From the NCBI GenBank assembly GCA_021824175.1, contig JAKALP010000010.1, positions 62,001 to 126,000 of the forward strand: DNA of 64,000 nucleotides, read 5' to 3'. Shown here in pieces: positions 33,383 to 44,341 of the stretch. A program made the translations under genes and the position numbers. Below the pieces are notes generated by a model, which saw only the letters and a program-made list of their open reading frames with translations, did no database searches and was not told where the DNA came from. The DNA is from Deltaproteobacteria bacterium (GTDB lineage Bacteria > Desulfobacterota > Desulfobacteria > Desulfobacterales > Desulfosarcinaceae). The first letter of the stretch is position 1. Every line of letters begins with the position of its first letter.

Positions 33383-36300
33383 ATGATTGCCATTGACGGT
33401 TATACGATCACTCATAAAATCCGGCAGGAGCGCCATGCCGCCTTTTATGAGGCCGTGCGCGCCCATGATCCGCAAGAAGTGCTCGTCATTCATCACACCA
33501 CCGATGGTCTCACCTCCGAATCCCTGAGCGAAATCCGAAATGGATTCGAGCGCGTGCGGGCGATAAAATCAGACAACCTGGTGCGCATTCTCGAAATGCA
33601 ATCCGTGCGCGCGGCCAACCGGGAAGAACTTCTCTTTGTCTGTGAAAATCACCATGCCAAGCCGCTCAAGGATTTCATCACCGCCATCCGCAGCGATCCG
33701 CGCTATTTTTTCGAATTTGCCATCGGCTTGGCTGAAGTCACCAATCTGCTGCATCAAAAAGAGTTTCTTTTGAAGGAGATCAACCCCTCGACCCTTCTGG
33801 TCCGAAGCGGCGCGGGCAGCATGCTGATCAATACCCCCTTGATATTGATGGCGCCCGTCAATCCCATTGCCCAGCGGGAAGCAAAAGAGATATATGACGA
33901 GGCCTTCATCGCCGATTGCATGCCCTACATTTCTCCTGAACAAACCGGCCGCATGAACCGGCAGGTAGACTATCGATCCGATTTTTACTCCATCGGCGCC
34001 GTGTTTTATGAGTTGCTGACCGGCCGCGCCCCATTCTCTTCGGAGGACCCGTTGGAGCTGATCCATTCGCACATTGCCCGGCAACCGGTTCCGCCCAATA
34101 AAGTGCGCATGGATATTCCCGAGATGCTGGCCAAAATCACGCTCAAGCTGTTGTCCAAAATGCCCGAAGAGCGCTACCAGAGTGCTTTTGGCCTGCTATC
34201 CGATATCCGGCGCTGCGCCCGCGATTATGCTGACAATGCTTTTATTTCCACTTTTGCTTTGGGCAACCGCGACACGCCCGAAAAACTACAAATATCCAAG
34301 AAAATGTTTGGCCGCGAAGAGCAGTTGGCCACGCTGTTGGCGCTCTTTGAAAAAGTCAAGCAGGGCTCGTCCGAAGCATTTAATATCACCGGGCCGCCGG
34401 GCATCGGCAAAACGCGTCTGGTGGAAGAACTTCAGCGCTATGTGCGGGAAGCCGGCGGATATTTCGGCACCGGCCGCTATGATCCCTTTCATCGCAACAT
34501 CCCGTATAGCGGCATCATTGATGCCACGCGCACGCTGCTGATCCGAATCTTGGGCGAAAGCCCGGAAAGACTGGCCTTCTGGAAAAAACGGTTTCTAGAT
34601 CAATTGGGCCGCAATATCCACATCGTCATTGAAATGGTGCCGGAGTTGGAATGCATTGTCGGCAAACAATCCAAAGCCCATGAGCCGCTGCCCGACAAAG
34701 CCGAACAGATGTTTCTAAGCACCTGCACCGATTTTTTGAGGGTTTTCGCCCAGCAGGAACATCCCCTGGTCATCTTTCTCGATGACATGCAATGGATCGA
34801 TATGGCCAGCCTGGTGCTCATTGAACACATCATGACCGGCCCTCCCATGCCCCATTGTCTCTTCATTGGCGCTTATCGCGACAATGAGGTGACTCTGACG
34901 CATCCCTTATCGATCCTCTTCGAGCGCATCCATACCAAGGGCATCCCCTTTGGGGGCATGAAGCTAAAACCTTTGGCCGTGGAGCATATTCGCCAGACCC
35001 TGATCGATTCGCTTTCAAAAAACATTGTCGATGTCCAGGCCTTGGCGGAACTGATCATGCTCAAGACCGACTGCAATCCTTTCTTTGTGGGCCAGTTCCT
35101 GCAGTCGCTTTACCAGCGCAAACTTCTTTACTTCGATTTTCAGACGGGCGTCTGGCGCTGGAACGAGCAAGGAATCAAGGCCCAGGCCTTCACCGACAAT
35201 GTCATTGAACTAATGAGCGGTGAGCTGCAAAAATTGCCCGAGGAGGTCCAGGGGGTTCTTAAAATCGCGGCCTGCATCGGCAACCGCTTTGATATTACTC
35301 TTCTGGCCGCGGCCAACGATCGCCCACCGCGCGACACAGCCGCGGCCCTGCTATCCGCCATTGATCTCGGCTACATCATTGCCAAGGGAGAAAGCTTTGA
35401 CCTGTTGCAGCGCCTGTTTGGCGATCCCAACACGATCGAACCCGGGTCCCTTGATTTTGGCGAAGAAAACACCTTTGAGTTCTTACACGACCGGGTGCAC
35501 CAGGCCGTATATGATCTTCTGCCCATCCAGTCCAGGCGACCGTTGCATCTAAAGATCGGCCGATTGCTGCTCAAACACAAAGATCAAAAAAAGATTCACG
35601 AGAATATCTTCCATGTGGTCAACCAGCTCAACTACGGGTTGGATCTGGTCATTGGGGTAAAAGAAAAAAGCGAAGTGGCTCGCCTCTATTTGATCGCCGG
35701 CCGCAAAGCCAAAGAGGGCGCGGCCTATCAGCTGGCCACCCAATATTTCAATTCCGGCATCACTTTGCTGCCAGAAAGTGCCTGGGAAAACGATTACGAT
35801 CTGGCCTTTGGACTCTACCGGGAGAAAATGGAATGTGCCTTTTTAAGCCGCAATGACGACGAAGCCAAACGCCTGTTCGATTTCGTGATGGACCGCACCG
35901 ATTCGGCGCTCGATAAGGCCACGCTGCTCAACTTCATGCAGATCATGTATGCCGGCGCCGGGCAGCACCAGCTGGCCGTGCAAATGGGGGTGGAGGCCCT
36001 TAAACTGCTGGGTCATTCTTTTCCTTTAAAGGTCGGCCGCTACGATGTAACGGTCAAATTCCTTTGGCTGCGCTTCAGACTATCCAAACGGCGCGTCCGG
36101 TCCTTGACCGATCTGCCTGAAATCACGGACCCGCGCCAGCGCCTGATCATGAAGCTGTTTTTGGATATGGCCTTTTCCATCTACCTGCTCGATCCCGATC
36201 TGTTCATCATCCTGACCATCAAGATCTTCGATCTCACCTTGAAATACGGCAATTCGCCGGCGGCCTGCCTGGGCTATGCCATTTATGGCGCTTATGTGTG

Positions 36301-38569
36301 CGCCGCGCTCGAAGATTATCTTCTGGGCAACCAGTTGGGTGAGCTGGCCCTGGCGTTAAGCCAAAAGATAGAGCGGCCCCACCCGACCAAAGTGCTTCTC
36401 TGGTACGGCTCCGGCATCAGCTTCTGGCGCCACCACATGCGCGTTGGGCTCGACTACAGCCGCAAAGGGCTCGACTACGCCTTGGAAAGCGGCGACTACC
36501 TCTTTGCCGGCTACCATTTGTTCTCCCTGATCAACTTTATGTTTGGCAGCGGCGCCCGACTGGAGGAAGTATTCGCGGAAACGGAGAAGCATTTTGACTT
36601 CGTTCGGGCGTCCAAGGACAACGGCAATATCAACTCCTTGATCTCCATTCGCCAGATCATCCGCTGCCTGCGCGGTGAGACCAAAAGCCATCTGAGCATT
36701 GATGACGCTGACTTTTCCGAAGCGGATCATATCCAGCAGATCATGGAGCAAAACCCCCAGACCGTCCTGATGCGCCATTATCTGCTCAAATTGCAGTTGC
36801 TCTACCTGATGGGGGATTTCCAGGGCGCCATGGAGATGGGCCAGCGCGCGGCACGGCTGATGCGTTACAGCGCTGGCACCATCTCCATCACGGAGTTCTA
36901 TTTCTACCGTTGCCTGACCTTGCTGGCCCTTTTACCCCAGGCACCATCCCCGAAAAAGCGTAAATACCGCAAATCCATCCGCCGCTATATCCGGCGCTTT
37001 TACCGCATGGCCAAATCGTGTGCCCCTAATTTCAAGCACATGTTTCTCATTCTGATGGGTGAAAAGGCCCAGTTAATCGGCCAATACGACAAGGCCTTCA
37101 GTTGTTTCAAGGATGCCGTCAACCTGGCCGAAGAACAGGGATTTATTCAGATCGCGGCCCTGGCCAACGAATTGTCGGCCAAACTGGCCCTCAAGCAGGG
37201 GTTGCACACGCTGGCCAAAGTTTTTCTGCAAGAGGCCAACGCCGGCTACCTCAAATGGGGGGCCGTGGCCAAAAGCCAATTGCTGGTTCGCAGCCACCCC
37301 AATTTTTTACCCGGCGCCAATGTTGGGCTCATGCCGGCCTCACGGCAAATCGACCACACCACCGTGGTCAATGCCTTGCAGGCCATCTCCACCGAAATCG
37401 TACTGGATCGCTTGCTGAAGAAATTGATGAAGATCGTGGTGGAGAATGCCGGCGCCCAACGCGTCTTATTCATTATGAAACAGGATGAAGAGTTGGTGGT
37501 CAAAGCCAGCAGCAATGTGGGCGGCCCCATCCGGCTGACCAATCAATACATGCCGGTGCACACCCGCGATGATCTGCTGCTGGCTGGTATCCACTATGTC
37601 CATCACACCCATAATCCCCTGATCATCGAAGATGTCCAGGTCCACAGCGACTATCGCAGCGATCCCTACGTGATTCAATATAAACCCAAATCCATCGTCT
37701 GTTTGCCGGTGCTGCGACAATCGGACCTCGTGGCCATTCTGTATCTGGAAAACAACATAGTGGCCGGGGCCTTCACGCCCGACCGTATCGAAATTTTGCA
37801 GCTGATCGCCTCCCAGGCGGCCATCTCCATCGAAAACGCGCGCTTGTATGAAAACGTCATGCAAAAGGAACGCGACCTGATCGAGTTGTCGGAAAAACTG
37901 CGCTCCCTCTCTTCAGAATTGCTGCTCACCGAGGAGCGCGAACGCCGCCGGATCGCTGTGGATCTGCACGACCGCATCGGCCATGCTTTAGCGAATGTTA
38001 AAATGCAGCTGGGAGTATTGAAACAGACCACCGATAACCCCCAGGCCCTTGACCCCATGAACCGCATCGGCCAGCTCATCGATCAATCCATCCAGGATAC
38101 CCAATCGCTGACCTTTGATCTGAGCCCGCCCGTGCTCTACGACCTGGGGTTGGAAGCGGCCATCGAGTGGCTGGTGGATCAGACCCAGGAACAGCATCGG
38201 CTGGCGGTCTCCTTCCAGGATGATCAACAACCCAAACCCATTGATGAAAGCATCCGCGTGCTTGCATTCCAGGCAGCCCGTGAGTTATTGTTTAACATCG
38301 TGAAACACGCCCAGGCCCACCATGTCTGGGTGTCCATGGAACGGGTTGACGATATGGTGCACATAATGATTGAAGACGATGGTATTGGTCTGCAAGCCTC
38401 CTTGCAGCGCCGCAAGACCGCCAAAAAAGGCGGAGGATTTGGCCTCTTCTCCATCCAGGAGCGCCTCAAGCATTTCGGCGGCCGCTTGGATATTACGTCA
38501 GACCCAGGCAAAGGAACGCGCATGGTGTTGATAGTGCCCATGCAAACCACACAAGGGGACCAAGTATGA
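33383..38569 (+). CDS. Giant pseudokinase/AAA/GAF hybrid histidine kinase
   Basis: 1728 residues. Order: Ser/Thr-kinase-like domain (about 1-275), AAA-type predicted ATPase (about 305-640, P-loop GPPGIGKT near 336, Walker B VIFLDDMQW), helical TPR-like region (about 690-1290), GAF domain (about 1325-1480), HisKA_3 dimerisation domain (ERERRRIAVDLHDRIG, phospho-His near 1529) and HATPase (IEDDGIGL, GGGFGLFSI). The kinase domain looks dead: the catalytic HxD loop reads LKEINPST and the DFG position reads INTP. The APE-like segment (SPEQTG) and DFYSIGAVFYELLTG remain. It should phosphorylate the LuxR-type regulator whose start overlaps its stop (ATGA). The signal is unknown. Confidence 0.92.
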   Translation: MIAIDGYTITHKIRQERHAAFYEAVRAHDPQEVLVIHHTTDGLTSESLSEIRNGFERVRAIKSDNLVRILEMQSVRAANREELLFVCENHHAKPLKDFITAIRSDPRYFFEFAIGLAEVTNLLHQKEFLLKEINPSTLLVRSGAGSMLINTPLILMAPVNPIAQREAKEIYDEAFIADCMPYISPEQTGRMNRQVDYRSDFYSIGAVFYELLTGRAPFSSEDPLELIHSHIARQPVPPNKVRMDIPEMLAKITLKLLSKMPEERYQSAFGLLSDIRRCARDYADNAFISTFALGNRDTPEKLQISKKMFGREEQLATLLALFEKVKQGSSEAFNITGPPGIGKTRLVEELQRYVREAGGYFGTGRYDPFHRNIPYSGIIDATRTLLIRILGESPERLAFWKKRFLDQLGRNIHIVIEMVPELECIVGKQSKAHEPLPDKAEQMFLSTCTDFLRVFAQQEHPLVIFLDDMQWIDMASLVLIEHIMTGPPMPHCLFIGAYRDNEVTLTHPLSILFERIHTKGIPFGGMKLKPLAVEHIRQTLIDSLSKNIVDVQALAELIMLKTDCNPFFVGQFLQSLYQRKLLYFDFQTGVWRWNEQGIKAQAFTDNVIELMSGELQKLPEEVQGVLKIAACIGNRFDITLLAAANDRPPRDTAAALLSAIDLGYIIAKGESFDLLQRLFGDPNTIEPGSLDFGEENTFEFLHDRVHQAVYDLLPIQSRRPLHLKIGRLLLKHKDQKKIHENIFHVVNQLNYGLDLVIGVKEKSEVARLYLIAGRKAKEGAAYQLATQYFNSGITLLPESAWENDYDLAFGLYREKMECAFLSRNDDEAKRLFDFVMDRTDSALDKATLLNFMQIMYAGAGQHQLAVQMGVEALKLLGHSFPLKVGRYDVTVKFLWLRFRLSKRRVRSLTDLPEITDPRQRLIMKLFLDMAFSIYLLDPDLFIILTIKIFDLTLKYGNSPAACLGYAIYGAYVCAALEDYLLGNQLGELALALSQKIERPHPTKVLLWYGSGISFWRHHMRVGLDYSRKGLDYALESGDYLFAGYHLFSLINFMFGSGARLEEVFAETEKHFDFVRASKDNGNINSLISIRQIIRCLRGETKSHLSIDDADFSEADHIQQIMEQNPQTVLMRHYLLKLQLLYLMGDFQGAMEMGQRAARLMRYSAGTISITEFYFYRCLTLLALLPQAPSPKKRKYRKSIRRYIRRFYRMAKSCAPNFKHMFLILMGEKAQLIGQYDKAFSCFKDAVNLAEEQGFIQIAALANELSAKLALKQGLHTLAKVFLQEANAGYLKWGAVAKSQLLVRSHPNFLPGANVGLMPASRQIDHTTVVNALQAISTEIVLDRLLKKLMKIVVENAGAQRVLFIMKQDEELVVKASSNVGGPIRLTNQYMPVHTRDDLLLAGIHYVHHTHNPLIIEDVQVHSDYRSDPYVIQYKPKSIVCLPVLRQSDLVAILYLENNIVAGAFTPDRIEILQLIASQAAISIENARLYENVMQKERDLIELSEKLRSLSSELLLTEERERRRIAVDLHDRIGHALANVKMQLGVLKQTTDNPQALDPMNRIGQLIDQSIQDTQSLTFDLSPPVLYDLGLEAAIEWLVDQTQEQHRLAVSFQDDQQPKPIDESIRVLAFQAARELLFNIVKHAQAHHVWVSMERVDDMVHIMIEDDGIGLQASLQRRKTAKKGGGFGLFSIQERLKHFGGRLDITSDPGKGTRMVLIVPMQTTQGDQV

Positions 38570-39219
38570 CGATTCGTATTCTCATCGTGGACGACCACAG
38601 CATCACCCGTGAAGGCTTGAAGGTCTTGCTCAACAAGACCGAAAATTTCGAGGTGGTTGCTGAAGCGGAAAACGGCCGCGCGGCCATTTCGCTGACACGC
38701 AAGCTTCAGCCCGATGTGGTGGTGATGGACATCAACATGCCGGACCTAAACGGGGTGGACGCTTCTCGCCAGATCCTTTCCGAGCTGCCCCAGACGCGCA
38801 TCATCGCCCTGTCCATGTATTCGGATAAAAGCTATGTGCGCGGCATGCTCAAATCGGGTGTCTCCGGTTACCTGTTGAAGAACTGCGCCTTCGAGGAGCT
38901 GTCGGGCGCCATCGATACCGTGATGCGCGGCCAAACCTACCTGAGCCCCAAGATCTCCGAAATCGTGCGCAAAGAATTCGTCAAGATGATGACCACCGAA
39001 GAAATCGGCACCACCGAACTGCTCACGGACAAGGAGCGCGAAGTACTTCAGCTCATCGCCGAAGGTCGCAAGACCAAGGAGATCGCCGAGCGGCTGCATA
39101 TCAGCGTCAAAACCGTGGAGGCGCGCCGCAGCAAAATCATGGAAAAACTCAATATCAACAACGTGGCCGGCCTGACCAAATTCGCCATCCGCGAAGGGTT
39201 GACTTCCATCGAGCCGTAA
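38566..39219 (+). CDS. NarL/LuxR-family response regulator
   Basis: 217 residues. Receiver domain (about 1-120) with the acidic pair VDDH, phospho-Asp in VVVMDINMPD and Lys in SGYLLKNC; C-terminal LuxR HTH (about 145-210; TDKEREVLQLIAEG, TKEIAERLHISVKTVEARRSKIMEKL). The ATG overlaps the stop of the giant HisKA_3 kinase, so it is the cognate regulator. The regulon is unknown. Followed by a long perfect inverted repeat at 39231-39295. Confidence 0.96.
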   Translation: MTIRILIVDDHSITREGLKVLLNKTENFEVVAEAENGRAAISLTRKLQPDVVVMDINMPDLNGVDASRQILSELPQTRIIALSMYSDKSYVRGMLKSGVSGYLLKNCAFEELSGAIDTVMRGQTYLSPKISEIVRKEFVKMMTTEEIGTTELLTDKEREVLQLIAEGRKTKEIAERLHISVKTVEARRSKIMEKLNINNVAGLTKFAIREGLTSIEP

Positions 39220-39316: not shown

Positions 39317-40066
39317 ATGCACATCGAAGAACACCGCTGGCACAGCCCGGCCCTGGGACGCGAAATGGCCTTAAAGGTTTACGGCCACTGGGGCGACCCC
39401 TTCATTGTGTTTCCCTGTTCCAGGGGACGTTATTTCGATTATGAAGGCATGGGAATGATCGGCGCCATCGCCGCGTTCATCGATGGCGGCCGCATCAAAC
39501 TCTTCTGCGTGGACAGCATCGATAATGAAACCTGGTATAACTTCGCCATTGCGCCGACCGGGCGCAATGAGCGTTATGAAGCCTACGACCGTTACATCAC
39601 GGCGGAAGTAATTCCATTCATCCGCGACCATTGCCACGCACCCGATGCGCGGCCCATCACCAACGGCTGCAGCATGGGGGCCTACCATGCCCTTAATTTC
39701 TTCTTCAAGCACCCCGATCTCTTCCAGGGCACCATCTCCCTGAGCGGCCTCTACCGGCTCGACCGCCCGGAGTTCGGGTTAAGCGCCGCTGAACTGGGCG
39801 CCGTTTACTTCAACTCGCCCTTGACCTATCTGGCCAACATTTCAGATCCCTGGTTCCTGGAGCAGTATCGGCAACGCGCCATCATTGTCTGCGCCGGGCA
39901 GGGGGCCTGGGATGAGGAGGCCCTGGAGGATACCCGCCACCTGGCTGACATCTGCCAGGCCAAAGCCATCCCCGCCTGGATCGACATCTGGGGCCACGAC
40001 GTCAACCACGACTGGCCCTGGTGGTATAAGCAGATGAATTACTTCTTGGGAAAACTTTATAGTTAA
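39317..40066 (+). CDS. Putative esterase, alpha/beta hydrolase
   Basis: 249 residues of the putative-esterase (esterase D/antigen 85-like, PF00756-type) family. The nucleophile elbow is NGCSMGAYHAL (Ser about 118). A late Asp/His pair lies in IWGHDVNHDW. The protein is cytosolic by its lack of a signal peptide. The substrate is unknown; relatives act on small thioesters such as S-formylglutathione, of some interest since a thiol-pathway-like operon converges on it from the other strand with only 3 nt between the stops. Confidence 0.85.
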   Translation: MHIEEHRWHSPALGREMALKVYGHWGDPFIVFPCSRGRYFDYEGMGMIGAIAAFIDGGRIKLFCVDSIDNETWYNFAIAPTGRNERYEAYDRYITAEVIPFIRDHCHAPDARPITNGCSMGAYHALNFFFKHPDLFQGTISLSGLYRLDRPEFGLSAAELGAVYFNSPLTYLANISDPWFLEQYRQRAIIVCAGQGAWDEEALEDTRHLADICQAKAIPAWIDIWGHDVNHDWPWWYKQMNYFLGKLYS

Positions 40067-40069
40067 GCA

Positions 40070-40765
40070 CTAATACGGAAGTACTACCCGATAAAATCCT
40101 TCGGCCAATTCATATCCGCCCTTTTGGCCGTAGCCTTTAAAGCGCTGGCTCAGCCACTCGCGCAGCTGCTCCATGTTTTGCTCCCGCATCTGGCTGACGT
40201 GGCATTGGAGGGCCTCCAGTTTGAGGCCGTAGGTTTGGGTGATATCGATGTAATAGTTGGTTTCATCCGCGCCGAAGAAGAGCAGCTCCTTGACCTTATG
40301 CGGCTCAAACCCTTGGGCCAACAGATCAGGATAGGCGGCATGATCCCGGGCAAAGGGAAAGACGGCATCCAGAACCACCTGGCCGATGATGCGATGGTCG
40401 CGGTGCCAGACATAGCGGCGATAGGGATCGGTGGTGATCACCGTGTGGGGCCGGAAGGTACGCAGCACCTGAACAATGCACTTGCGCATCTGGGGAGTGT
40501 CTTCCAGGCCCTGATCTGGATAGCGCAGAAATTGAACTTCACGCACCCCCAGCTTGGCGGCCGCCGCCCGTTGCTCCTGCTCGCGCACTTGGGCCAGGGT
40601 TTCGGGGGTGATGGTACGATCGCTGGTGCCTTTCTCGCCGCTGGTACAAACCACATAGGCCACGGATTGGCCTTGGCGCACCCAATGGGCCACGCTGCCA
40701 GCTACACCATATTCCGAATCATCCGGATGAGCAGTGATCAATAGAAAATCCACGGGTTCCGTCAC
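40070..40765 (-). CDS. PIG-L/LmbE-family N-acetylglucosaminyl deacetylase (BshB/MshB-like)
   Basis: 231 residues starting at GTG 40765 (AAAGGAAATG about 10 nt upstream). The zinc motif AHPDDSE (H-P-D-D) lies near the N-terminus, and a second metal His is in YVWHRDHR. CTSGEKGTSD is a block typical of bacillithiol BshB and mycothiol MshB-type deacetylases. It would remove an N-acetyl group from a GlcNAc conjugate. Last gene of a four-gene operon, 15 nt after an MshA-like glycosyltransferase; together the two could make a GlcN-containing precursor. The actual substrate is inferred. Confidence 0.9.
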   Translation of the reverse strand: MTEPVDFLLITAHPDDSEYGVAGSVAHWVRQGQSVAYVVCTSGEKGTSDRTITPETLAQVREQEQRAAAAKLGVREVQFLRYPDQGLEDTPQMRKCIVQVLRTFRPHTVITTDPYRRYVWHRDHRIIGQVVLDAVFPFARDHAAYPDLLAQGFEPHKVKELLFFGADETNYYIDITQTYGLKLEALQCHVSQMREQNMEQLREWLSQRFKGYGQKGGYELAEGFYRVVLPY

Positions 40766-40780
40766 AGTTGCATTTCCTTT

Positions 40781-42073
40781 TCATTCTCGGGCATTATTCG
40801 GCGGGCGCACCTGGCCGGCCGCTACGGTTTTTATGGGATTGCGGGCCGTTAACAACCGGGCATAGAGTTCCTGGATCGCATCAGCCACCCACTGCCAGCT
40901 CAACGATTCCACCGCAGCTCTGATCTGAGCCGCAGTTGGCCGATGTTGCCTTGGGATTTGGAGAATACGCCCGATGGCCTGGGCCACAGCTTGGGATTCG
41001 GCGGCGGCGATTACCGCGCCATTCAGGCCTTCACGCACCAGCGAGGCCGCGGCACCCACGGCCGTGGCCGCCACCGGCGTGCCGCAGGCCAGCGCTTCTA
41101 GAACCACCAACCCAAAACTTTCATAGTGGGAGGGCAGGGCCAGCAGATCCGCCGCGCCGTAATAATCCGGCAAGGCCTCATGCTTCACGCGGCCCGCGAA
41201 ATGGACCTGATCTTGAATCCCAAGTCGGCCGGCCAATGTTTTCAAGGATAAGGTGCTCTGATCGGCGGTATCATCTCCACCCACGATAATTAGCCGCAGG
41301 TTCGGATGGTTGCGCCGAAGCTCGGCCACGGCCGCGATCAATGTGTCCACGGCCTTCAACGGCGCGAAACGCCCAACGTAAAGTATGACCTCCGCTTCCG
41401 CCGAAAGCCCCAACCGTTGACGGGCCGCGCGCCAATCCTGGGGTTGAAAACGCTCCAGATCAACACCGCAGGGAACCACCCCAATCTTTTGACGAGCCGC
41501 CTGGTAGTGTCGGCGGAGATTCTCCAACTCCCCCTGGGAGGGCACCACGATGAAGTCCGCGGTTTCGACCAGCCGCTGTTCATGGCCGATGCGCAGGGTA
41601 GTTTCATTTTCCAAAGGGCTGTGGTGATTCTTGGCCGCGCCCAAGGTATGAAACATGACCATGTGAGGACAATGCCATTGGGCCTGCAACACAGCGCCCA
41701 CCGCGCCGGAGATCCAGTAGTGGCTGTGGATGAGATCATAGGCCCGGTCATGTGCCTGACCGTAACGTTCCACTGAATTCACGAGCTGGGGCAGATGATG
41801 AACGAACTCCTCTTTTGGGATCCGGGTAAAACGCCCTTGGCCCAAGGTAATCAAACGCACATTGGGATAGAGTTCGGCCTCATAGGGTTCGCTGCCAACG
41901 CCGGTGAAGATGTCGATCTGATGACCGTTGCGGCCCAGCCACCTGGACACCTCGCGCACATAGATGCTCATGCCGCCGGTATTCTGGGCGCCAAGGGTTC
42001 CAACCGGGCTGGAATGGAGGCTGAGCATGGCGATTCTTAAGGTGTGGTGCGGGCTTTGTAAGTTTGACTGCAT
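40781..42073 (-). CDS. GT-B glycosyltransferase, MshA-like (GT4)
   Basis: 430 residues. The N-terminus AMLSLHSSPVGTLGAQNTGG-MSIYVREVSRWL is close to the signature of MshA (D-inositol-3-phosphate GlcNAc transferase) and sucrose-phosphate-synthase-like GT4 enzymes. The C-terminal nucleotide-sugar site has YVGRFAPLKAVDTLI, LALPSHYESFGLVVLEALACGTPV (E-x7-E) and GGDD. It probably transfers GlcNAc or a similar sugar to a polar acceptor. It starts 3 nt after the GNAT gene and is followed by the deacetylase. The acceptor (inositol phosphate, malate or another) cannot be read from the sequence. Confidence 0.9.
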   Translation of the reverse strand: MQSNLQSPHHTLRIAMLSLHSSPVGTLGAQNTGGMSIYVREVSRWLGRNGHQIDIFTGVGSEPYEAELYPNVRLITLGQGRFTRIPKEEFVHHLPQLVNSVERYGQAHDRAYDLIHSHYWISGAVGAVLQAQWHCPHMVMFHTLGAAKNHHSPLENETTLRIGHEQRLVETADFIVVPSQGELENLRRHYQAARQKIGVVPCGVDLERFQPQDWRAARQRLGLSAEAEVILYVGRFAPLKAVDTLIAAVAELRRNHPNLRLIIVGGDDTADQSTLSLKTLAGRLGIQDQVHFAGRVKHEALPDYYGAADLLALPSHYESFGLVVLEALACGTPVAATAVGAAASLVREGLNGAVIAAAESQAVAQAIGRILQIPRQHRPTAAQIRAAVESLSWQWVADAIQELYARLLTARNPIKTVAAGQVRPPNNARE

Positions 42074-42076
42074 GGC

Positions 42077-43054
42077 TTAAATGGTCATCCGGCACCGGTA
42101 AAGATCCACTGGCTGCCCACCGATACGCTTCTTATAGATTTCCCGGCCCTTGAGAAAATCATAACGCCGGCATCCCATGCCCACCGCATGTTGAATGCTG
42201 AGCACCTTGCTGAGGATACCGACGCTCAGGGGCTCATACTGCTCATCATAGCCGCTGTTGTAAAGATAGCGCACACCGGCGTAATCAAAACACAATACTG
42301 CGGCTACGGCGTGTTGATCCACATCCAGAAAACAGAGGCGCAACAAGCCATGACTCGCCAGCGCCTCCATCAAATCCTGAAAATAGTCGACCATGGCGCC
42401 GGACATAAACTCCGCCTTGTCGGCACGATTGCGGCGGAACAGATCCACAAAGGCGTGGCTGGCTTTTCCCAAGCCATTGGAACTCTCGATCACGCTATAG
42501 GTCCAGGCCCCATGGGTTTCCAATCGGCGCAATTTGCGGCGCACTTCATGACGCTGCTTGCCGTCGAGCAACTGCAGATAGCCGTCCCAGGTGTCAGGCA
42601 GCGCCATCTCAAAAGTGACCTCGTCAGGGGCGAGGGCTGTCTCCATCTGCTTTGGCGCCAGGCTCTTAAGTGCTTCCACGGTCACGGCATCGGGCCGCAA
42701 GGTACGGAAATCCAACTGGGTGATGCCCCGGTGGCGAAGATGTTCCATGACCGCGGCCAGCACGTGGCGGCCCTTGCCTGGTGCGACCACCAGATCCTGA
42801 TAATCGCACACCTCGTGCGAGCCCAGAAAATGGGCGCATGCTCCCTGCAAAGCCAGGGGCGCCACGCCGATGGGCCGATCCCCTTCAACAACCACCAGCA
42901 GGTGGGGTTCGCCCGGCGCCCCCAAGTGACGGCAGACGGTTTCCAGCCAGAAGGGCAGGACAAATAAACAGCGCCAATCCAGGAGTTTTAAGGATTGGCG
43001 CCAAAGATGCGCATACTCTTCAAAGGAGATGATTTGAACCTTTATGGATTGCAG
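42077..43054 (-). CDS. BioF2-like GNAT acetyltransferase, probable CTG start
   Basis: 325 residues if translation begins at CTG 43052-43054. The frame is open from the preceding stop to 42077 but contains no ATG or GTG before a TTG at 42925. The stretch lost with that TTG (FEEYAHLWRQSL, LPFWLETVCRHLG) is clearly coding and matches the N-terminus of BioF2/FemAB-like GNAT proteins. CTG has AAAGGA eight bases upstream, and the product would begin MQSIKVQIISFEEY. The C-terminal half has RRNRADKAEFMSG and the GNAT core VAAVLCFDYAGVRYLYNSGYD. It probably N-acylates an amino group. Second gene of the thiol-like operon. Confidence 0.82.
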   Translation of the reverse strand: MQSIKVQIISFEEYAHLWRQSLKLLDWRCLFVLPFWLETVCRHLGAPGEPHLLVVVEGDRPIGVAPLALQGACAHFLGSHEVCDYQDLVVAPGKGRHVLAAVMEHLRHRGITQLDFRTLRPDAVTVEALKSLAPKQMETALAPDEVTFEMALPDTWDGYLQLLDGKQRHEVRRKLRRLETHGAWTYSVIESSNGLGKASHAFVDLFRRNRADKAEFMSGAMVDYFQDLMEALASHGLLRLCFLDVDQHAVAAVLCFDYAGVRYLYNSGYDEQYEPLSVGILSKVLSIQHAVGMGCRRYDFLKGREIYKKRIGGQPVDLYRCRMTI

Positions 43055-43072
43055 CGTGTGTTTCCTTTCTTC

Positions 43073-44341
43073 TTATGCTTTTTCGTCCCCTGTCTTCTTG
43101 TCGACCAGCCGCCAATACATCCCATCGGAGCGATCTTCCACCTGCACACCAGCGCGAGCCAGGCAGGCACGAATTTCATCGGCGGCCTGCCACTCTTTTT
43201 TCTCCTTCAAACGCGATCTTAACTCCAGCAGCGCATCCACCAAAGGAGCCAAACAGCTTTGGCGGCTATCCGGCCGTCGCGCCAACTGCGAGCCGAACAA
43301 CACCAGCAGGTTGCGCAACACCTCCCGGGCCGCGCCTTCGGCATCGCGGGCTTGAAGCTGTTCATACACCTCGTGGATGTGGCGTTCAAGTTCGAGCAGA
43401 GCATGGGTGGCAGCTTCAATACGATTATGGGCCAAGGCGGTATGAATTTGTTCGCTCAACCCTTCCACCGGTGCCCAGACCATGTCGTCATCCAGCCCAA
43501 TGGTTTGGGGCCGAACGGTGTGGATAGACAAGATCGACCGGGAAGGAGCCTCCACACAGAGATCGGTCAAGGATATGGCGTCGTTTTTGGAAAATATCCG
43601 CTCGCGGCCATTTTGTCGTAAAGTCACCGAGCCGAGACCTTTGATGCTGACCTGCTGGGTGGCGAAATTGATGACCAAGGCCGTATGCTCATCCAGACCG
43701 ACGAGCGTGGTGGAATCGGGAAGTAACGTTTCAAGCGCTTGCAGACGCGGCGCGCCCATGAAACAGTAGCGAGTGTCATGATTGCCCCCTTCGGCGTTGT
43801 TCCAATGGGGAATTATGGTCCAATCTAGCCCAAAGGCTTTAAAAAGATTCAAGCCCTCCACCCAATGGGGCGTGTGGCCGACTTTATAGATTTCGTAGAC
43901 CGGCAAGGTTAATTGACCCATGGTCAGCGCGGCGGCGCTGGCCGCCACCAGGCAGGCCCCTTGGGCGACCCGTTCTGCCAACAGCTCTGGTATCCTGGTT
44001 TGCTGCCATTGGCGCAGTGCATAGGTGGGACTGCCGGGACCAATGAAAAGGTATTGGGCTTGTTGGATCGTCTGGTAGCATTGTTCTTTCGCGATGGCGC
44101 TTTCCTGGTCAGCCGATTTAAGCGAAGCGATCGTTAGGGGGTGTTGAATGTGCTTTTGAAAATATGTTTTGGCCTTTTGCGCGATCTGATCCGCGTTGAG
44201 CTGAAAGCCAGCCGGGGTGTCAATAAATACCGCGCCGGCCTGGGGACCATAATGCCCCAGTAGCTCCTTGTGCACTTCCACCATGGCGGCGGTCATTTCA
44301 CCGGAACCCATGAGCGTGATGATACCTGGCTGAGTCGTCAT
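43073..44341 (-). CDS. S51/type 1 GATase-like domain fused to CysRS C-terminal-like domain
   Basis: 422 residues. Residues about 1-230 form a cyanophycinase/peptidase E-like (S51, type 1 glutamine-amidotransferase-like) domain: ITLMGSGEMT, FIGPGSPTYALRQW, and the nucleophile position in VAASAAALTMG (Ser about 135). The last ~75 residues (FGSQLARRPD, LLELRSRLKEKKEWQAADEI, GVQVEDRSDGMYWRL) match the C-terminal domain of cysteinyl-tRNA synthetase, where ADxIRxxLxxxGxxxxDxxxGxxW is characteristic. The HIGH/KMSKS catalytic core is absent. First gene of an operon with GNAT, MshA-like and deacetylase genes. It may recognise a cysteine-bearing conjugate or cleave a peptide bond; that is inference. 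Confidence 0.85.
   Translation of the reverse strand: MTTQPGIITLMGSGEMTAAMVEVHKELLGHYGPQAGAVFIDTPAGFQLNADQIAQKAKTYFQKHIQHPLTIASLKSADQESAIAKEQCYQTIQQAQYLFIGPGSPTYALRQWQQTRIPELLAERVAQGACLVAASAAALTMGQLTLPVYEIYKVGHTPHWVEGLNLFKAFGLDWTIIPHWNNAEGGNHDTRYCFMGAPRLQALETLLPDSTTLVGLDEHTALVINFATQQVSIKGLGSVTLRQNGRERIFSKNDAISLTDLCVEAPSRSILSIHTVRPQTIGLDDDMVWAPVEGLSEQIHTALAHNRIEAATHALLELERHIHEVYEQLQARDAEGAAREVLRNLLVLFGSQLARRPDSRQSCLAPLVDALLELRSRLKEKKEWQAADEIRACLARAGVQVEDRSDGMYWRLVDKKTGDEKA

Follow-up and report, generated by a model that had tools for sequence, protein, structure and literature searches.

A recurrent four-gene operon of Desulfobacterota as a candidate route to a mycothiol-like thiol with cysteine taken from Cys-tRNACys

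Two pathways for low-molecular-weight thiols come closest to the genes described here. The mycothiol pathway comprises Ino1, the glycosyltransferase MshA, a phosphatase, the deacetylase MshB, the CysRS homologue MshC and the GNAT enzyme MshD, and MshC apparently acts independently of tRNA, as worded in an available excerpt of PMC2922099; the bacillithiol pathway comprises BshA, BshB and BshC. Amides of small molecules and peptides are also made from aminoacyl-tRNA (aa-tRNA) by SbzA, the cyclodipeptide synthases and the PEARL enzymes, which have folds other than that of the transferase described below, and the available parts of PMC9437257 and PMC12945691 mention no redox thiol produced in this manner. 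In a stretch of 64,000 nucleotides from a member of the Desulfosarcinaceae (contig JAKALP010000010.1, positions 62,001 to 126,000; hereafter, the window), we analyzed an operon that encodes a protein with S51 and CysS_C domains (hereafter, S51C), a transferase of GNAT fold (hereafter, the GNAT), a glycosyltransferase and a PIG-L deacetylase. We propose, with about as much confidence as doubt, that this operon makes a mycothiol-like thiol via Cys-tRNA-dependent cysteinylation of glucosaminyl-inositol; its substrates and product, its reliance on Cys-tRNA and the role of the S51 domain are all predicted. The operon resembles the mycothiol pathway up to glucosaminyl-inositol and then departs from it. 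Among the matches listed from the open-licence literature, none described this operon or a low-molecular-weight thiol made in a tRNA-dependent way.

The four genes were recognized with Pfam and open reading frames and lie head to tail on the minus strand, from 44341 down to 40070, in the order S51C (43073..44341), GNAT (42077..43054), glycosyltransferase (40781..42073) and PIG-L (40070..40765, GTG start), with intergenic gaps of 18 (to the CTG at 43054), 3 and 15 nucleotides. The genome that carries them comprises 6.07 Mb in 61 contigs. A profile scan of named genomes returned 356 stretches, 288 of them with S51C relatives, and the best 80 were studied as loci, their carriers belonging to Desulfobacterota, Nitrospirota and neighbours. 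The operon is kept in many anaerobic sulfate reducers. Two relatives were added to give a set of 82 loci, in which many contigs are cut short, and a further 15 S51C loci, together with 20 GNAT loci without a linked S51C, gave a set of 117. The GNAT was found in 70, the glycosyltransferase in 65, PIG-L in 49 and the complete set in 46 of the 82 loci. All four families were present in 52 of the 117, and 50 of these 52 share one strand and the order S51C-GNAT-GT-PIGL, so that the arrangement is more than chance. The single operon drawn in an earlier sequence-only reading of the window was thus confirmed at these positions, and the four-gene set that it proposed to look for does recur in other genomes. 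After filtering of open reading frames by length and score, the alignments held, with the window included, 79 rows for S51C, 60 for the GNAT, 54 for the glycosyltransferase and 42 for PIG-L; two of the 80 S51C loci (L064 and L085) were dropped by length.

S51C consists of a PepE/cyanophycinase-like S51 domain (residues 9-225; PF03575, 44.2 bits) and a CysS_C domain corresponding to the anticodon-binding part of CysRS (residues 365-411; PF23493, 36.5 bits, cut-off 23). Pfam matched only these two domains and found no class I CysRS catalytic core, and an MshC inside the operon was ruled out on this ground. CysRS structures aligned with the C-terminal part over their helical and anticodon-binding end (3tqo best, E 1.5e-9; also 1li5), while a Foldseek search with the AlphaFold2 model (mean predicted local distance difference test score, pLDDT, 83.5) returned S51 structures, followed by the CysRS-tRNACys complex 1u0b (E 1.1e-3). 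In this kind of complex, according to an available part of PMC12684709, Arg423, Arg427, Trp432 and Asp436 of CysRS touch G34 of tRNACys. Across the 79 rows of S51C, the equivalent of Arg423 is always Arg, that of Arg427 is Arg in 77 and Lys in two (the window protein and one other), that of Trp432 is Trp in 69, Phe in six and Tyr in four, and that of Asp436 is always Asp; few positions of the CysS_C domain are as conserved as these. We take CysRS R439 and D451 to be tRNA contacts as well. By alignment, S51C keeps the CysRS residues that read tRNACys, and it is a putative tRNACys-binding partner. With peptidases S51 (PepE, cyanophycinase) it has in common the fold, the serine nucleophile and the histidine, Ser135 and His179 being invariant in all 79 rows, whereas it has SAAA where a SAGA-type motif is expected, is fused to the CysRS anticodon domain and contains the invariant stretches PHWNNAEG and VYE.YK. 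The S51 domain may perhaps relay or proofread a cysteinyl group. An apparent lack of CysS_C in the S51C of two genomes proved to be a profile artefact, for Pfam finds the domain in one of them and it can be recognized by eye in the other.

The GNAT belongs to Acetyltransf_6 (PF13480, 109.3 bits) and ends at 42077. Its start is likelier the CTG at 43054-43052, preceded by a purine-rich stretch, than the TTG at 42925, which gives too short a protein because the frame is open upstream and homologues align from 43045 on; CTG is a rare start codon. The AlphaFold2 model (mean pLDDT 96.4) was compared with known structures by Foldseek, and the top five by E-value (9wqy, 9wqx, 6snr, 9wqw and 7z6a) were all aa-tRNA-dependent enzymes, three of them entries for two streptothrisamine-type synthases and the other two FemX proteins; MprF came next. 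TM scores normalized by the query were 0.53-0.64 for the three groups. We take streptothrisamine to be an amino-sugar compound. In an available part of a review (PMC12945691), FemX-like GNATs are treated as users of aa-tRNA, with Lys305 of FemX as the catalytic lysine. With the FemABX, MprF and streptothrisamine transferases (Sba18, Sbb17; BD-12 Orf11), the GNAT shares the double-GNAT fold by Foldseek, a conserved basic helix and a conserved lysine in an almost invariant C-terminal YK motif. Lys305 of the window protein, Lys in 59 of 60 rows of the alignment, may be the equivalent of the catalytic lysine. It differs from them in being only 10-15% identical and in its predicted acceptor, glucosaminyl-inositol, and predicted amino acid, cysteine. 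The classical acetyl-CoA loop Q/RxxGxG/A was not seen in alignment columns 268-290, and MshD was not among the models matched by the operon GNAT, the genome itself not having been searched for MshD. Since the GNAT is nearest, by Foldseek E-value, to aa-tRNA-dependent transferases, it is more plausible as the enzyme of the cysteine-joining step than as an MshD. As a side observation, a radical-SAM/SPASM-type protein adjoins the GNAT-GT-PIGL genes at four loci (L155, 7706-8836, where Pfam identified it, L156, L166 and L097).

The glycosyltransferase, a member of GT4, had MshA as its best NCBIfam model (TIGR03449, 324.7 bits, below the cut-off of 462.5; BshA, 116), as did the four other glycosyltransferases tested, each below the curated cut-off. 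Among PDB structures, it scored about equally with Tll1590 (229.8 bits), presumably a sucrose-phosphate synthase, and with the MshA structures 3c48 and 3c4q (222.9 and 221.3). The MshA residues that we take to hold the phosphate of inositol-1-phosphate (K78, Y110, T134 and R154) correspond, over 54 rows, to Lys in 47 and Arg in four, Tyr in 54, Thr in 53 and Ser in one, and Arg in 54. This pocket points to a soluble phosphorylated compound as the acceptor, and which one is suggested by the neighbouring genes. PIG-L (PF02585, 117.2 bits) retains the HPDD and HRDH motifs, to which we ascribe a role in zinc binding. It remained below the MshB cut-off (52.7 vs 224.35), and among the thiol models it scored best with BshB1. 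A second PIG-L of the same genome, away from the operon, reached 210 with MshB (cut-off 224.35) and 189.6 with Mca (cut-off 277.15).

Genes flanking the operon were clustered, with 18 clusters listed and a few duplicate contigs included in the counts. The most common were a histidine phosphatase (18 loci), an MBL hydrolase (16), a sensor resembling PAS-domain proteins by eye (13) and a HAD phosphatase (11), followed by a mycothiol-type Ino1 (10), a phosphate-ABC-type ATPase (10), an acyl-CoA dehydrogenase (8), a second type of Ino1 (5) and smaller ones. A profile recount within 6 kb in the 82 loci, with duplicates removed, gave 18 histidine phosphatases, 12 GloB-like MBL proteins (the MBL neighbour being nearest to GloB with 100.1 bits, cut-off 200.8) and 10 HAD proteins. 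Ino1 lay within 6 kb in 14 of the 82 loci (nine of one subfamily, five of another), where we estimate well under one by chance, assuming one Ino1 per genome of about 4 Mb and without control loci. It also adjoins the GNAT and glycosyltransferase genes in six of the 20 GNAT loci without a linked S51C, these six belonging to a single family, and two others of these 20 have an inositol-monophosphatase gene beside the glycosyltransferase (one Pfam-tested). One Ino1 neighbour of the first type scored 408.7 bits with the mycothiol_INO1 model (cut-off 638); in the window genome, PF01658 was over its cut-off twice, and the mycothiol-type copy, which lies away from the operon, scored 458.9 against the same 638. 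Across 247 genomes of the phylum, PF01658 was found in 30 of 31 with S51C and in 110 of 216 others (Fisher 1.4e-7). A fusion resembling mycoredoxin and TrxR lies within 6 kb in five of the 82 loci, and a DinB protein resembling mycothiol transferase (MST) occurs at one (108.7 bits, cut-off 170). Inside the cluster, two Gfo/Idh/MocA dehydrogenases were found in 34 and a second S51 protein in 25 of the 82 loci; genes of 340 and 550 amino acids between S51C and the GNAT in relatives had been considered as BshC, and those tested are such dehydrogenases. The esterase beside the operon (39317-40066) had no match among 15 loci (L033-L047). Nearby, at 33383-39219, lie genes for a large protein resembling sensor kinases and for a response regulator that contains a LuxR-type domain; two further genomes (L036/L052 and L039/L054) also have relatives of both beside the operon.

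The joint occurrence of S51C and the GNAT was examined in the same 247 genomes, S51C being counted at E<=1e-50 and the GNAT at E<=1e-30 or at no fewer than 180 bits, with the genome lists transferred by hand from the search tables. S51C was present in 31 genomes, the GNAT in 51 or 42, respectively, and both in 28. The second Fisher test and the family-level count did not include GNAT matches below 180 bits (nine of the 51 genomes); at 180 bits or more, the GNAT was found in 28 of the 31 S51C genomes vs 14 of the 216 others (Fisher 3e-23), and 12 of 13 families with S51C have it (about 90 families assumed). In half of the genomes with both genes (14 of 28), the two are on separate contigs, some of these assemblies being fragmented, and the 14-20 kb around S51C in G066, G161, G096 and G114 contain no other core gene. 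An S51C hidden below the threshold was considered for the 14 genomes with the GNAT only and rejected, for 12 of them gave matches to the C-terminal part within longer frames, taken as CysRS-like, and two gave none; S51C is therefore dispensable in some GNAT carriers. Mca was tried as a downstream marker, and all three of its carriers have the GNAT (p 0.005), too few to lean on.

The curated models place the operon in neither the mycothiol nor the bacillithiol pathway. With the former it has in common an MshA-like glycosyltransferase, a PIG-L, a mycothiol-type Ino1, a phosphatase and mycoredoxin-like neighbours, whereas its genomes lack an MshC over the cut-off, only the anticodon end is taken from CysRS, the GNAT is FemX-like, and the carriers found here are not actinobacteria. 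With the latter it shares a GT4 enzyme and a PIG-L, whereas its glycosyltransferase is far from BshA. The sequence-only reading had suggested a search for mshC and bshC and had named a complete bacillithiol or glutathione pathway elsewhere, together with linkage to polysaccharide genes in relatives, as evidence against itself. Neither MshC over the cut-off nor BshC was found in 40 relatives (one of 14 control genomes exceeded the MshC cut-off), and BshC occurred in one of the 247 phylum genomes, by which the bacillithiol pathway is ruled out. Below the cut-off, the MshC model matched all 40 relatives, as expected for CysRS, with three matches in the window genome. For glutathione, the glutamate-cysteine ligase PF04262 was absent from the 40 relatives, but with a GCS2-family gene in the window genome and eight genus-mates such a pathway may exist there.

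Several observations concern these CysRS-like proteins and the ligases of the same genomes. On contig C22 of the window genome (L129, 7425-8984), a CysRS that, by eye, is without its anticodon-binding end, exactly the domain that S51C carries, stands directly behind a SelB-like gene (by eye). This fits the selenocysteine-linked CysRS*/SelB* system of Desulfobacterales described in an available part of PMC9437257. On contig C1 (L131, 4395-6680), a PALP-family, cysteine-synthase-like domain is joined to a CysRS-like domain in which HIGH and KMSKS are degenerate by eye; the MshC model matches a frame of 725-866 amino acids in 35 of the 40 relatives, the window genome included, and L131 is the one examined. 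Genome G001, which carries an S51C operon, also encodes a CysRS-like protein of 398 amino acids without KMSKS (by eye) or CysS_C, below the MshC cut-off (L132, 7557-8753). GCS2 (PF04107) occurs in 11 of the 40 relatives, including the window genome and eight genus-mates, and is not matched in five full-length S51C carriers outside the genus (G011, G015, G024, G026 and G032). The copy of the window genome is YbdK-like (48.5 bits, cut-off 176.4) and lies on contig C42 (L191, 7002-11136) with an RLAN/RimK ATP-grasp protein, a member of the N-formylglutamate-amidohydrolase family and a small gene that resembles C39 peptidases by eye. This locus may serve a peptide pathway of some kind, and this genus may make a gamma-glutamyl thiol.

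In the pathway that we propose, Ino1, encoded elsewhere in the window genome and beside the operon in others, would supply inositol phosphate, the MshA-like glycosyltransferase would add GlcNAc to it, a phosphatase would remove the phosphate and PIG-L would free the amine, onto which the FemX-like GNAT would move cysteine from Cys-tRNACys. S51C would bind the tRNACys anticodon and perhaps relay or proofread the cysteinyl group on its serine, and the two Gfo/Idh/MocA dehydrogenases, where present, may modify the inositol or the sugar. The mycothiol-like logic of the sequence-only reading is upheld by the glycosyltransferase, closest to MshA, and by the Ino1, phosphatase, GloB-like, mycoredoxin-like and MST-like neighbours, whereas its assignment of steps is not. 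The S51 protein, which it took for the cysteine-joining enzyme, indeed is without a CysRS core by Pfam, but the GNAT is the better candidate by Foldseek, and the MshD-like role that it gave to the GNAT was not supported, as the fold is nearest to aa-tRNA-dependent transferases by E-value. With the GNAT moved to the cysteine step, an MshD-like acetylation is left without an assigned gene.

Several observations weigh against this proposal, which is least secure as to which amino acid is used, the donor of the GNAT and the task of the S51 domain. The likeness of the GNAT to aa-tRNA enzymes holds at low identity; acyl-CoA GNATs match its fold as well (VipF, sixth by E-value, TM 0.40; glucosamine N-acetyltransferase GlmA, 0.43-0.48; the clavulanic-acid tandem GNAT, 0.50-0.53), the highest TM score shown, 0.66, belongs to a protein of unknown function, a profile search found no related PDB chain, and the FemAB sequence models stay below their cut-offs (PF02388, 12.1 vs 24; PF04339, 13.4 vs 27). 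No tRNACys gene was found near the operon in the 60 scanned of the 80 loci, only tRNA-Trp, -Val and -Leu. The equivalent of MshA Asn25 is Ser in 51 of 54 glycosyltransferase rows, and for PIG-L, diacetylchitobiose deacetylase is a closer match (132 bits) than MshB (36.8). None of the models for MshA, MshB, Mca, INO1, GloB, mycoredoxin, TrxR and MST was matched at its cut-off, and PIG-L, histidine phosphatase, HAD and MBL are common families whose neighbour counts come without a random-locus baseline. The sampled genomes are related, so that the p-values overstate the association; 14 of the 42 GNAT genomes are without S51C even at a loose threshold, three of the 31 S51C genomes (G065, G147 and G237) are without the GNAT, and Mca-like genes occur in only three of the 247.

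Four other explanations were considered, of which none seems probable to us. A mycothiol-like thiol would also result if cysteine were joined by an ATP-dependent CysRS paralogue encoded elsewhere, with an MshD-like N-acyltransferase role for the GNAT and with S51C as a peptidase or amidase acting on the thiol or on conjugates of it. The additional CysRS-like proteins (MshC-model matches in all 40 relatives, three of them in the window genome, and the G001 protein), together with the peptidase nature of S51 members and the invariant serine and histidine, would agree with this, but none of the matches reaches the MshC cut-off, of the window genome's three one fits CysRS*, and the GNAT combines a fold nearest to aa-tRNA enzymes with no acetyl-CoA loop seen in the columns inspected; as it would also leave the kept anticodon contacts of S51C unexplained, we regard it as unlikely. 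That S51C is instead a stand-alone tRNACys factor, a deacylase or sensor recruited near the operon in some lineages only, is distinctly unlikely in our view given that 28 of 31 S51C genomes still contain the GNAT, even though no other core gene lies on the examined stretch around S51C in G058, G096, G114, G161, G189 and G260, and an S51C away from the operon has a gene of one cluster directly downstream on five distinct contigs (L149, 9666-10409; L104, L148, L150 and L151), the tested member being PNP_UDP_1.

The other two concern the product. Glucosaminyl-inositol might be aminoacylated with another amino acid to a non-thiol, or the product might be an inositol-based solute or lipid head group; the GNAT fold is silent on the amino acid, 14 genomes have the GNAT without S51C, and Ino1 also serves lipids and solutes. 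Set against the CysRS-derived domain with its G34 contacts kept and the neighbours of thiol-redox type, this seems rather improbable. A surface-glycan or exopolysaccharide modification cluster, the main alternative of the sequence-only reading, is to our mind very unlikely. Such clusters often contain GT4, PIG-L and Acetyltransf_6 genes, and the GNAT weakly matches the XrtA-associated FemAB protein (24.7 bits, cut-off 260). However, the identified clusters present in at least four loci, from the part of the 18 that was scanned, include no flippase, polymerase or further glycosyltransferase, the acceptor pocket is like those of MshA and Tll1590, which we read as suited to a soluble phosphate, and Ino1 is a neighbour.

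The proposal of a Cys-tRNA-dependent route can be widened, tentatively and with doubt outweighing belief, to anaerobes of Desulfobacterota and Nitrospirota: these would take the cysteine of a mycothiol-like redox thiol from Cys-tRNACys, with a FemX-like transferase acting on glucosaminyl-inositol and S51C, a serine-hydrolase fold with an anticodon domain taken over from CysRS, selecting tRNACys and forming or proofreading a cysteinyl intermediate. Low-molecular-weight thiols of anaerobic bacteria are called understudied in an available part of PMC9874932, and there is a bearing on mercury chemistry, in which thiols reportedly matter for speciation. If the proposal is true, the operon would represent a second route to the Cys-GlcN bond and point to what the still unknown thiol of many sulfate reducers may be, the thiol pool of the cell would be drawn from its charged tRNACys, and translation would be tied to redox buffering.

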